Assembly: GCF_029633865.1 (NCBI RefSeq)
Contig: NC_079224.1
Span: 19,061,126 to 19,125,125, forward strand
DNA: 64,000 bases
Reading direction: 5' to 3'
DNA from: Lampris incognitus
Taxonomy: Eukaryota; Chordata; Actinopteri; Lampriformes; Lampridae
The notes under the pieces were generated by a model. The model saw nothing but the letters and a program-made list of their open reading frames with translations. It made no database searches and was not told the DNA's origin. Shown here one piece after another: positions 7,618-29,910 of this stretch. Every line of letters starts with the position of its first letter. Within the stretch, counting starts at the first letter, position 1. A program made the translations under genes and the position numbers.

Positions 7618-10540
7618 CTATCCAAGCAAGTCATCCATCCAGCTGTTGTTTGCAGTGGTATTCTCTGGTTCAGTGCTACTGCTAACAGGGCCCAAAAGAG
7701 TGTCCATACATGAATCTGCATCTCTTGGTTCAGCTATGGGTTTTTCTGGTTCTGATACACAATCAAACAAAAGACCTTTCTGATTCAAAGGGGAAGCACT
7801 TGATAAGCTATCTAAACCTAGAAAATCGTCCAATGTATTGGACCAGGCTTGAGTGCTTGCTTGCATTGTAGAATCTTCACACCTTGAAACATCACTAATC
7901 CCAAATATATCATCGGGGAAGTGGGAAAGCTTCGGGTCTGAGGAAACACCAGGAGTGCTTTGACCATAAACATTGACATCAGGGGGTTGAATGAAAACTG
8001 TACCTTCTGAGCCAAATATATCAAAGTCAGCTACCTGTTCTTTTGTCTCAGTGTTTGTGCTGAAACTGAATGGATTTGAGGTTTTAGTCTCATTTTGTTT
8101 TATGGGTTCTGGTTCAGAAAGTTGCTTTTGACTTTCAGCTGATATGGGTTGAGAGTCCAGCACGGCAAGAGATTCCTCAGAGGTATTTCCAGACAAAAAG
8201 TCAGGGATCAAAGGAAATGCAGATGTTGTATCAACAGAAGTATTTGCAGTTATCTTCTCCTGAGAGCTTGGTGGACCAAACAGATTATAGGGATATTGAG
8301 GGGTCTCCTTGTCCACATTCAAAAGCATCCCATCACAGTGGTTTGTATTAGCTCCTAATTCTGCATCAAGTATTTCATCTGGTGGCTGGACAGTGCTTTC
8401 TGCAGCCATCTCACTGATCAATTGCTCGACAGGGGTGGGATTAACAGTGTTTCCAAAAACATCATTAGGTGCCCCCTGAAAGGCATCAACTAAACTCTCA
8501 TCAGCACTTTCCTCTGAGATCATCTGATTGACGGATACCTCTGATATTTTGCTAATTGATTCATCAGCAGGAGAAATATCTTCAAAAACAGCCATTCCAG
8601 TCATAATGTGAGAGAGATTGTTAGTTTCAGTGTTCTTTAAAGTTGGTTCTGGGTTATCTGATGGATTTATGTCCTCTGTAGCTTCCACGTTAAGAACTTG
8701 TACTGGAGCAATTGAAATTGGTTCTTGTACAATTTGATCATCCCGTGTATCATTATCAGCTGATGACTTGGACAGGGGCTCTGTGTTTTCACCTCTGTGT
8801 GTGATACTGTTGGGATCAGTAGATTGGGAGTTGCCATTTATATTTTCAACAGGTTTTTGTTCTGAAAGAGAGATTTGAGATTCCTCTGTGTCAGCTTGGA
8901 CATGTGTGATTTCCTCTTTATCCTTTTGCTTAGCTGATTCGGTCTCACCGGTGTTCTTCTCTGATGATGACTGAAACAGTTTTTCGAGGAATCCACTGGG
9001 TTTGGCCTCCAGTTTCTTGTCACCCTTAACTTCAGCCTTTTTTGCTTTTTCATTGCCACCTGATGAAAAAAGCTTGAGCAGGGGACTTTTCCCTTTGGAC
9101 CAGGATCCCTTTTTGACATTCGTCTTTTCAGTCTGTTTGGTAGTGGAATTCAGAGAGTCTGACCTGTAAACTCCCTTCCTCTGAGAACCACTGGTCCATC
9201 GCTCTTCTGAATCACTTTGTGAATCATTCCTTTTATTTCCAAGACTACTCTCTTCTCCACTTACATGTTCGGCTTGACTTTCAGCCATTATTTGACTTGA
9301 TGAATCACACTGACCTACTGGATTCTCTGCTAAAATATTTGGTTGCTCAAGAGACATAGGTTTTATATTAGGAGCCATATGATCACTGTCTTTCTCGTTG
9401 TACGATTCATCATTAGTAGAGTTCTCTAAAAGTCCATTAAGACTCAGAATGTTGTCTTGATTATCGATCAGCACGATCTCCTGATGGCTGTCCACATTCA
9501 CAATATCTGGATTTGATGTATTATTTGTTTTTCTGTGGTTTTCATGCTCGTATGGCTTAGGTATTACCTCACTTTCAACTTCTTCTTCCCTGACTTCTGA
9601 AGACAAATGTCCAGAATTCATTTTGGTTGTGTCATCTTTCACATCCTCAGATCTATCATCTGAATGCTGTTGACTGTTATCCATTTGCTGCTTATTGTGG
9701 TCTTCATTTCCTGTTTTTAAACTCAACTGTAGCTGAGAGGAAAGCTGGTCTTCTTGGACAGCGTCAACAGCTGGAGCAAACCGAACAGTTTTCTTAACTC
9801 TGTTTGGGGATGCTCTGTGCTCATCAGATGTCAAATTATGTGTCTTTATCTGGGGTGTCAAATTTGCATGTTCTGTTTTTAGTTTTGTGATAGTAGTACC
9901 CTTTCCTGAGCAAGACGAAGCAAAAGCAACCACTGTTGAAATGATGCTGTCATTGAAAAGTGCTCTTTTGGTTGAAACACTAACTTGTTTTGTTTCTTCT
10001 GGAGGCAATTTCTCGGCCGATTTAAACCTTGTTTCTGTTGTTTCCTTAATCCCAGAAATTGAGGAGTTCAGCAATTGTTTCTCTACCTTTCCCTCGTTGA
10101 TCTTAAGGTTGTGTTTGTCTGCCTGATGATGGTCTGAAATACGAACAGTAAATTCGGCTGCCTGGCCTTTGTCTGATATCCTATTTCCCTGGACTGGCGA
10201 ATACACCTGCTGAACAGAACTACCCCCTATACACTTTTTAACTGGTGGCCAACTGGTTTTCAGTTTGCCCCTTGTCTCAGGAGCACTGTGACATCTGAGT
10301 TCTCTTGCAGACACACCGACGGCAGGTTCTCCTGAGCCGTTGAAGGTGTCAAGGCTGCCCCTCGTTGTTTGGGGGTTCTTCACAGCGTCTTGTTCATCAG
10401 TCTCTGCAGTTTTCTGAAGCCAGCGGTCTTTATGTTGCTTATGCCCAAACCCCTCATCATAATTTCCCTTTCTTTTGAAAAGTTGCTGATAATGAAAGAT
10501 GCAGTAGAACGCTCCATACAGAGATGAGTAGTTGTGCATG
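7618..10540 (-). CDS. xirp1: Terminal exon: second half of LIM domain and long acidic tail
   Basis: The acceptor TTTCATTGCAG lies just above 10540 and the exon ends at TAG (7620-7618), 974 codons. It opens with the second LIM zinc module (GAFYC..H) and [16 protein letters not shown], the signature that follows the LIM domain in EPLIN/XIRP2. A LKTSWPP segment recalls EPLIN's LRIAWPPP. Further on are KKTVRFAP (an RVxF-type protein phosphatase 1 docking motif by consensus) and two short amphipathic segments ([20 protein letters not shown]). The tail then becomes acidic with repeated short motifs: DVFG, NLFG, NPFSF, DIFG, DDIFG, LDDFLG, DTLLG, and WMDDLLG at the very end. No other domain is seen. 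Function of the tail is unknown to me. Confidence 0.82.
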
Positions 10541-13500
10541 CTGCAATGAAATAAAACACATATCCATTTGTGACCTTGTGAAAATTGTGATATACATTTA
10601 AATGGTAATTTTTGGCCAATTTTTCATATTTTCATTTCAATAATCAATAATTCAATGACCTTAATAATTTCATTTTTGATTTACAAACAGATACTACAAT
10701 ATATGCGTATTTAACATGGTTGTCAACATTTTGGTAATTTTTGGGGTTAAAAACGGTGGGTACTTTCAATTTACTGCAATTTTTTTTCATGAAAATATGG
10801 ATTAATCTCACCTTAGTTTCTTTTTACAGTGTTTACAGCAGAAACAGTTGTTGTGCAGGATTAGTTTGTTAGCCACCATTTTCTCCATGGGGTAGACCGG
10901 TGTCAAACAGGCAGAACACATTTCTTTGGCAGGTGACTGGAACTATGATAATGACAGTTTTGATTCAGTTTTCATCCCTTATAAATATATGTGTGGGTGT
11001 GGGACTTTTCTTTATTGACACATTATTCATATTAGCCGTTTAATACATCCACACTGAATCATATTTGTGCTGTTTTCTGTCCCAACATTTATTTCTCGTC
11101 TCTTTTGTCAGTTTGACTTCTATTTGAAAGAGATGTGTGGATGTTGTGATCTTTATTGGGGGTTTTTTGTAGGTGTTTTTCCCACCAATATGACCATGAG
11201 AAGCATACAGCTCTATGATTTTTCATTAACATCAGTTTTCATAGCAGTAAAATATGAATAACTGATTCTGGTGTAGTATCTCTAAAAATAGAGTATGTAA
11301 GTCCTGCAACTAAATATCATCATCATCATCAGGTCGAGTATCCTCGGATGAAATAAAGTTTATAAATATCGCCAACATTTTGCATCTTATTCATACTGCC
11401 AAATACAGCTTATGGCAGAAATCAGTAATACATACAACAAAAACAAAAAAGACAAAACGTCAGTCTTACATTAGAAATATATGCTTTCACACCATAAGTT
11501 CAGTGACATTGTATTGTGGATGTTCTTTAATAACTTAAATTAACTACTGTGATTAGTGGTGAATTAATGAGGGCTGTGGCAATTAACTATCTGCCATTTA
11601 TCATCTAGCCTATGAGGAGATTAACAGTTTAAAGAGAGATTTCAGACACCAGCCACCTCCACCCCTCACCCTCAGGATACAACACCCCTCCTCTGGCAAA
11701 CAGTGCTACACACACATTGGTGGCCTTAGCTTTGTTTTTGTTTTTTTGTTTTGTTTTTGTTTTTAAGTATATATATGTATATTCTGGCGAGCACATGTGG
11801 TTACTGCATTCAAAGATGTCCCACGAGAACCACCACTAGTGGGCGCTTAGCTGACATGGTCGCTGAGAAGGGTGGGGCTTCTCCTCATTTCAAAGCAACA
11901 ATGTAATTGTTTCAGTTTTTAATTAAGTGAATTTTTGGATTATTTCCATGTTGTTGTCTATGATGTCCATGTCCATGATTATGTCCATGTCCATGATGCT
12001 GAAAGTGCACATAATGCATTTAAGTTTAAACCGGAAAATATTGATAAAATACCAAAATTTATAATTATTGACGCAAACCAACTTGAATCCACGCTTCTTC
12101 TTTTTTCTTCTTCTCTCTTTTATGTTTTTTCTTTTTGTGGGGTAAGGCCCGATATTACCCCTTGAACGGGCCCCCAGATGCTTATATTGTATGTACATAC
12201 TCGCTCTCCAAAAAACAGAGAGTATTGATTAATTAACGGCACATAGCCAAAACTGCTCAATATAAGATGTTGTTTCTGAACTGATTTTAGGTAGAGCAAC
12301 GCCGAGTGACTAAACTGGCTGCCGTGCATAGGGTCAAATGAAACACATCCCCTTTCTTTTTATATAAGACATGATGCACCATGTGGTGCAACCTGGACAC
12401 ATCGTAAGTAATGAACCTGGGATCATCAGGTGTTTCGGGTCTTAATATCAGACCCCCTCATCAAAAGAAATTTTCTTGGTTTAGAGTTGAGAGACTAGGG
12501 CTGAGAGGGCTGCGAGTTACAGGGACAGCCAAACAGCAAATAGAAATTTATACTTCCAACTTATCCTACAACATCATATTGAGAGCTGTTGTGAAGACTG
12601 TAGGGTAGACTAAGGTTGTCCCACGCACAGTTAAATGACAAACATTCTGTAAACGCAAAAGATTTTCTTGAACAAAAGTCTTAAAATTAACTTTAGTAAA
12701 CCTTATGAAAATTTGCTTGACTATGAAAAAGGTTTGTCTGGTTAATGAAGGGCGCTCTTGGAGCATTTTGTATTTTATATCCACACCGTAGAGGTGAGTT
12801 ACTGTGAGCCCCCTAATGATTATAGGTCGTGAAAAATAATGCAGAGCATAATCGTTTTAATCTAATTGAATAACAAATGTATGCATTCATACTTATTTAT
12901 GTATTTATTTTGGTAATAAACCAGTGTAAAATAGTGTCTTATTTTCAAACACAACTTTTAATGTTTATTAAAGGCATATTTGACCATTATTTGGCCATTA
13001 ACACAACAAAATATATCCACCATATTGCTGAGATTTAATAAAAGGACATAACATTTAACTATATTGTTACAGTATAAAATCCATAAGACATATTCTCATG
13101 ATTTCATAAGAAGATGAATTATTCATATGACATAAGTGACATAACTTTTGCATTGAAAACATTATAAATACATAAAAGAAATAATTAGTCATCCAAACTA
13201 ATTTTAGTGCTTTTCAGTCTTTGGTTGGCTAAATGTTACAAAAACTGTTCCTTCTTCCTTGGCATTGGTCAGCACATTTTCTACAAAGGGGCGATTAGAC
13301 CTTCGCATCAAAGGGGATGTCATTACTTCATATCTAGCTGGACTGCCAACTACTTCAAACGATGCAGACAAGTTACTCTCAGAGTGCTTGGTAACAAATG
13401 TTGATGTTTTGGATGAAACGAATGTATTTCCAAATCCATCGGTCTCTTCATAGGTTTCACTAACAGTCTTGGTGCCAAATATTCCTGCAGGAGGCTCTGG

Positions 13501-29875: not shown

Positions 29876-29910
29876 GGTTCGTGCCTGCGTGGCAATCACT
29901 TGAACAGCAT
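29766..29910 (-). CDS. xirp1: First recognised coding exon of the LIM form
   Basis: Acceptor CAAAATTTAG at 29911-29920. An ATG at 29875 opens [18 protein letters not shown], then [12 protein letters not shown]. The frame stays open back to the acceptor in phase 1, so coding sequence may start in an earlier exon. Two candidate donors, four bases apart, lie at 29765 and 29761. Confidence 0.6.

Follow-up and report, generated by a model that had tools for sequence, protein, structure and literature searches.

The 64,000 nt stretch of the Lampris incognitus genome analyzed here (the window; contig NC_079224.1, positions 19,061,126 to 19,125,125, called C17 below) carries on its minus strand, between positions 29910 and 7618, a XIRP locus in which five small exons (six with a weak 51 nt one), a 7.1 kb Xin-repeat exon and two LIM exons can be read in one frame. 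We consider it very probable (approximately 0.85) that this locus is a fish XIRP1 keeping the plan of the pre-duplication ancestor, with its upstream exons, giant Xin exon and pair of LIM exons, and that the giant exon serves as a terminal exon which can be left out. Judged from the genomic sequence, a XIRP1 with a LIM shell appears to be real and is well supported by its exon structure, by its frames and phases, by the neighbouring genes and by another copy in the same genome; short and long transcripts are predicted. The search of the same assembly (1.48 Gb, 537 contigs) with the giant exon matched four loci, located on C17 (the window) and on the contigs called C25, C27 and C14. The C17 and C25 loci are XIRP1-type and the C27 and C14 loci XIRP2-type, because of the pairing of their CSRNP genes, their neighbourhoods and the presence of a SCN1/2-like sodium channel by C27. 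Each of the two sets probably represents a teleost-duplication pair.

Exon plan of the XIRP locus

The gene model was assembled by hand, and the splice borders were scored in bits with a simple weight matrix. All exons are on the minus strand. Exon E1 (29762-29910), with the ATG at 29875, has GT/AG borders of weak score (acceptor -4.5, donor -2.9 bits). It is followed by E2 (29140-29430; RCRSMD...ALRALFESK), GT/AG and phase 0 at both ends with a donor of 0.6 bits, by E3 (26815-26881; borders of 5.3 and 6.1 bits), which keeps the frame, by E4 (22447-22598), a motif-bearing exon for which the C27 locus, of XIRP2 type, has a SVKERLAMYQAAVS stretch, and by the 42 nt exon E5 (22118-22159), phase 0 at both ends. 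The giant Xin-repeat exon (13204-20343; acceptor 9.2 bits) opens with an ATG and closes with its own TAA. LIM exon 1 (10812-10942; FQSPAKEMC...KKKL), placed by its splice borders and by the LIM tree, has a poor acceptor (-2.3 bits). The last exon (7618-10540), placed by its open frame, its splice borders and the tree, contains LIM exon 2, a block with the EPLIN motif, a SWPP motif and a long tail ending in TAG. The exon ends at 22118, 20343, 10942, 10812 and 10540 are all GT/AG. Both flanks of the giant exon are in phase 0 and the end of E5 can join either the giant exon or LIM exon 1, so that the phases permit both forms. The proposal of the sequence-only reading that the upstream and LIM exons join in one frame around a giant exon which may be included or skipped was thus borne out, with GT/AG borders and open joins.

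The stop-to-stop frame of the giant exon (20391-13204, minus strand) is 2,395 codons long, and a second long frame on the side of LIM exon 2 and the tail (10623-7618, minus strand) has 1,001 codons. The longest stop-free frame in 100 windows shuffled in two-base blocks was 238 aa. The Pfam model PF08043 found 16 Xin-repeat stretches in the 2,395-codon frame (431 bits), which is thus a multiple-Xin-repeat frame. Around its stop, no donor above 4 bits was found in the region 13300-13100, and AATAAA hexamers follow at 12969 and 12909, in an A+T-rich stretch where such hexamers are common. The strong acceptor, the ATG at the first base, the lack of a good donor and the AATAAA downstream point to the giant exon being an alternative terminal exon.

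In the model that we propose, a transcript including the giant exon would end at its TAA and encode a long actin-binding Xin protein, starting either in the shell (2,601 aa) or at the ATG on the first base of the giant exon (2,379 aa), as human XIRP1 does. Skipping of the giant exon would give a LIM protein without Xin repeats, comparable to the short XIRP2, of 1,239 aa (1,240 codons with the stop) with five upstream exons. The six small exons and 1257 codons counted previously are recovered exactly (1,256 aa, 1,257 codons with the stop, frame kept) if an uncertain, optional 51 nt exon at 24335-24385 on the same strand (phase 1/1) is included; its acceptor scores 4.6 bits and its donor is weak (-1.0 bits). 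Two strict scans found no sixth upstream exon, with cut-offs that would also miss four of the modelled exons; a looser scan returned several candidates, among which 24385-24335 alone was noted as restoring 1,257 codons. For XIRP2 genes with this layout, long (Xin) and short (LIM) isoforms produced by alternative splicing are reported in zebrafish (PMC3280289), and the same layout is reported to be alternatively spliced in mouse (PMC10259482).

The same layout could also be produced by two interleaved genes, an EPLIN/LIMD2-like gene composed of the shell and LIM exons and, inside its intron, a one-exon XIRP1 with its own promoter. The giant exon does open with an ATG, an AATAAA lies behind its own stop, and human XIRP1 is described with its coding sequence wholly in exon 2 (PMC13267782). 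We find this arrangement improbable, as phase 0 is found at either end of the giant exon, with an open shell-to-Xin junction, the C25 locus has the same layout, and transcripts shared between the two parts are reported for XIRP2 (PMC3280289, PMC10259482). In practice it would come down to a choice of promoter within one locus.

The second copy and the LIM domain

The C25 locus (C25:11267141-11273930) is a XIRP1-type gene with a giant exon of 1,731 codons, both LIM exons and a truncated tail, and repeats the window exon plan, less completely, in the same genome. By a rough pattern, three Xin repeats were counted there versus 18 in the window. Stretches resembling E1 (53% identity over 36 aa, E 0.002), E2 (46% over 28 aa, E 0.14, which alone is at chance level) and E4 (54% over 26 aa, E 6e-4) are colinear with the window exons, and a 42 nt (or 48 nt) candidate for E5, in phase 0, is found at the same place. 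No counterpart of E3 was found in the BLAST comparison of the window with the C25 open reading frames, from which queries with more than two strong matches were dropped. An extra, partial LIM exon 2 is present at C25:11367054-11367197, 93 kb from the intact one; having lost one zinc cysteine, it looks like a decayed duplication.

The eight zinc ligands of the LIM domain are intact in both the window and C25. The best solved-structure matches of the window LIM were LIMD2 (2lzu, 104 bits) and EPLIN (2d8y, 97 bits). In a LIM tree of nine rows and 84 columns, the window and C25 were joined at 100/99, and this pair was grouped with the LIMD2 rows (human and contig C13) at 94/95; C27 and C14, of XIRP2 type, were set apart as a pair at 100/100. 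The window LIM is 71% identical to that of C25, 63-64% to LIMD2, 55-57% to the LIMA1/EPLIN rows (55% to human EPLIN), 56% to C27 and 46% to C14. It therefore appears nearer to LIMD2 than to LIMA1/EPLIN or XIRP2, which is new, and the LIMD2 grouping is suggestive, given the 84-column alignment and the full support of two of the six inner branches. The EPLIN-like motifs pointed out previously, LKTSWPP included, are present; it is the LIM itself that leans toward LIMD2 rather than EPLIN. LIMD2-type LIM exons, 80% identical to human LIMD2, were observed at C13:33591400-33592000.

Closest by both structure search and tree, LIMD2 is represented by a 2lzu chain of only 72 aa which spans the LIM; to our knowledge it has neither Xin repeats nor a shell. 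LIMA1/EPLIN shares with the window the block after the LIM (2d8y, 97 bits) and what we take to be a common SIKDR-like motif, and we know of no giant Xin exon in it. The position of this block behind the LIM agrees between the window and the LIMA1 and LIMD2 rows, these rows rather than the published motif being the basis of the comparison. The EPLIN class is characterized by a LIM domain followed by a 22-aa EPLIN motif (Koch 2012).

Between C17 and C25, the LIM shows 0.18 nonsynonymous substitutions per site (dN) and 1.06 synonymous ones (dS), a dN/dS of approximately 0.17 (YN00); the NG86 method gave a dN of 0.15 and no dS value. These estimates indicate that the LIM is under purifying selection between the two copies. 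They bear on the possibility that the LIM exons are unused relics, slowly lost since the duplication, for which the truncated C25 tail, the extra copy at C25:11367054 minus one zinc cysteine, several weak splice scores and the report of a zebrafish xirp1 without LIM exons (PMC3280289) could be invoked. Such relics seem unlikely in view of a dN/dS this low between two diverged copies, the intact ligands, the GT/AG borders throughout and the open frame of 1,001 codons.

The tail encoded by the last exon is 973 aa long, and only its residues 1-99 match the tail of the C27 XIRP2-type locus. The shell had been called complete in the sequence-only reading, a term that is too strong in view of this tail. 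A C-terminal domain of the type found in the XIRP2 short isoform was not recognized in the window tail, the comparison being with the C27 tail rather than with the mouse domain. The C27 tail ends with LTVEEQIKRNRYYDDNDDS, presumably resembling the EPLIN C-terminus, and the window tail does not. Because the window lacks a recognizable XIRP2 mechanosensitive tail, its short form may have the LIM function in common with XIRP2, and not that of the tail.

Neighbouring genes and the XIRP1 assignment

The search for neighbours covered CSRNP, GORASP, WDR48 and SCN. On C17 the order is XIRP-CSRNP-GORASP-WDR48-SCN, over 136 kb end to end. The CSRNP-family gene, used as a synteny marker, is CSRNP1-type and lies on the plus strand of the window (59959-60201, 60335-60640 and 60835-61860, span 59959-61860; PF16019 matches). 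The GORASP and WDR48 candidates are found at most 13 kb to the right of the window and the SCN gene 75 kb to the right. The genome has two matches of PF11816 (DUF3337), both on C17 and 12 kb beyond the right end of the window; we take this domain to be that of WDR48, and PF04495 to be the GORASP domain. The human genes are listed as XIRP1, CSRNP1, TTC21A, GORASP1, WDR48, SCN11A, SCN10A and SCN5A, in reverse, in a copy-number table (PMC4074351), and the same genes are named as a cluster elsewhere (PMC3940728). The window locus has the conserved CSRNP1-GORASP1-WDR48-SCN neighbourhood of a XIRP1 orthologue, in the human order, and the synteny on which the sequence-only reading had made its XIRP1 assignment depend is present.

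The 12 CSRNP matches in the assembly fall into four loci, one per Xin locus, at distances of 30 to 170 kb. Over 164 residues, the CSRNP sequences are 71% identical between C17 and C25 and 80% between C14 and C27, versus 54-58% for the cross pairs (54-55% for C17 with C14 or C27). The C25 locus is situated 166 kb from the CSRNP gene that pairs with that of the window, with GORASP 64 kb further. GORASP adjoins the C17 and C25 loci and is 0.8 Mb from the C14 locus; an additional GORASP-like gene is present at C17:19758608-19759207, 0.6 Mb from the GORASP1 candidate. The SCN1/2-like channel is 110 kb from the C27 locus.

The Xin tree was computed from the N-terminal part of the giant exon; approximate rows stood for human XIRP1 and XIRP2 in place of database sequences, and the C25 row filled 44% of the columns. 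It splits human XIRP2, C27 and C14 from human XIRP1, C17 and C25 at 100/100, with a long branch for C25. With approximate human rows, this tree may be considered supportive rather than decisive for XIRP1. A tree placing both halves of the gene with XIRP2, which the sequence-only reading had named as the outcome that would overturn it, was not obtained, the LIM also being apart from C27 and C14. The C27 exon scored 593 bits against the approximate human XIRP2 and 243 bits against XIRP1. The C-terminal block of the giant exon (residues 1834-2346) matched C25, and neither C27 nor C14, in the genome search; the corresponding block of the approximate human XIRP1 gave 97 bits with C17, 78 with C25, 32 with C14 and no match with C27. 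The C25 giant exon is 34% identical to that of C17 and 25-26% to those of C27 and C14, and by these values it has changed fast.

Several observations weigh against the assignment to a LIM-bearing XIRP1. The evidence is the genomic sequence of one genome, and transcripts are only predicted. Work with expressed sequence tags, reverse transcription PCR and rapid amplification of cDNA ends led to the description of zebrafish xirp1 as a single large exon (PMC3280289). When the giant exon is compared in full length, C17 shares 38% identity with C27 and with C14 versus 34% with C25; in a separate comparison the C-terminal block did match C14 and C27 weakly, and the scores of C17 with the approximate human XIRP1 and XIRP2 (345 and 325 bits, respectively) differ by a narrow margin. 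In a PDB search, the C17 sodium channel matched SCN1/2/9/3/8 best (130-131 bits), followed by SCN5A (118) and SCN4A (116), and so had no clear type; the same search typed the C27 channel (SCN2A/SCN1A) and the channel on contig C2 (SCN8A). At C25, the CSRNP and GORASP matches cross in-frame stops in places, and the LIM2 exon stops 15 residues past HKNRW. The splice scores of the E1 and E2 donors and of the LIM1 acceptor are weak, no relation to the C27 tail is detectable for the 870-odd tail residues past the SWPP motif, and strain sensing by mouse XIRP2 is assigned to the C-terminal domain and not to the LIM (PMC10259482).

A third XIRP2 copy, a paralogue known to have LIM exons, is very improbable: the exon plan is that described for xirp2a and xirp2b (PMC3280289) and the giant exon is nearer to C27 and C14 than to C25 by score (45% identical in the genome search, the best matches of the window) and by whole-exon identity, but the synteny is XIRP1-type, two XIRP2-type loci with a CSRNP gene nearby are already present (C27, with its SCN1/2-like channel, and C14), and the Xin-exon and LIM trees both separate the window from them.

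Transposase-like frames are present elsewhere in the window. Those at 6144-6860 and 45578-46543 (minus strand) are presumably Tc1/mariner-like, judging by motif, and those at 41023-42730 (plus strand) we take to be hAT-like. An interspersed repeat found at 21000-22000 and 35500-36000 also occurs in the introns of the XIRP1-type gene of C25 (BLAST of the window against the C25 open reading frames).

Relation to described genes and a possible common origin

The window gene shares with XIRP2 (Xin-beta; xirp2a and xirp2b) the small 5' exons, the two LIM exons and a giant Xin exon that would likewise be optional. It differs from the XIRP2-type loci C27 and C14 by its clade, by its LIM and by a far tail which is not homologous to that of C27. 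Its giant exon ends at a stop without a good donor, whereas in mouse XIRP2 exon 8 is reported to be translated in one frame in the long form and in another in the short form (PMC10259482). With XIRP1 (Xin-alpha, CMYA1), a gene of heart and muscle, it shares the synteny, the Xin clade, a coding part opened by ATG and the XIRP1-type C-terminal block. Human (PMC13267782) and zebrafish (PMC3280289) XIRP1 are described with a single coding exon and, in the accessible text, no LIM, whereas the window gene has a LIM. The LIM-bearing XIRP1 is therefore a variant of the described form of the gene, being neither one-exon nor LIM-free.

A tree of vertebrate XIRP1, built from 221 homologues, is presented as showing Xin together with UL36 domains (PMC13267782). 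In a study whose main text contains no mention of LIM, EPLIN, CSRNP or synteny, the repeats were used to date the origin of Xin (PMC2478706), and the EPLIN class is given as human Lima1, Xirp2 and Limd2, XIRP1 not being named in the text available (PMC3305314). Among the matches listed from the open-access literature, no description of a LIM-bearing XIRP1 or of a four-gene relation was found. The suggestion that the ancestral XIRP gene had both halves is supported; the loss of the LIM part would not be confined to tetrapods if zebrafish xirp1 has one exon (PMC3280289).

On the evidence of this one genome, it seems fairly likely that LIMA1, LIMD2, XIRP1 and XIRP2 are four ohnologues, from two rounds of genome duplication (2R), of one gene (shell, Xin and LIM) situated beside CSRNP and an ancestral sodium channel. 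In this scheme, the Xin exon would have been lost from human LIMA1 and the LIM shell from XIRP1, LIMD2 would have been reduced to its LIM, and the fish XIRP1 would be the copy showing the missing link. Six of the seven EPLIN-class LIM loci (C17, C25, C27, C13 and two on C2, and not C14, the decayed C25 copy being uncounted) share a contig with a SCN match. The distance to it is at most 0.2 Mb for two of the seven and at most 3 Mb for four, and it amounts to 24 Mb on C25 and 33 Mb on C13, where the SCN match is only just above the cut-off; no EPLIN-class LIM accompanies the SCN matches on C22 and C150. The pairing of XIRP1 with LIMD2 in the LIM tree and the SCN linkage fit one ancestral gene quadrupled by 2R. 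In the human genome, LIMA1 is near SCN8A (12q13), LIMD2 near SCN4A (17q23) and XIRP2 near the SCN1A cluster (2q24), and with these positions added each EPLIN-class gene has a sodium channel of its own nearby. The Hox paralogon is reported to include the sodium channels, and human chromosome 3 has been suggested to belong to it (PMC2566581).

The C25 locus appears to be a second Xin-alpha that was kept in a teleost, a gene inferred to be lost in previous work (PMC2478706). A XIRP1 with a LIM shell implies that the fused gene predates the split of XIRP1 and XIRP2, and would tie four actin-binding genes to one ancestor. In mouse, the short form of XIRP2 is reported to be enriched at F-actin gaps of stereocilia, the LIM and C-terminal domain region being needed (PMC10259482). 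In hair cells, short XIRP2 is recruited to F-actin cores that have been damaged. A short LIM form of XIRP1, if made, could likewise mark damaged actin, be it in muscle or in hair cells.

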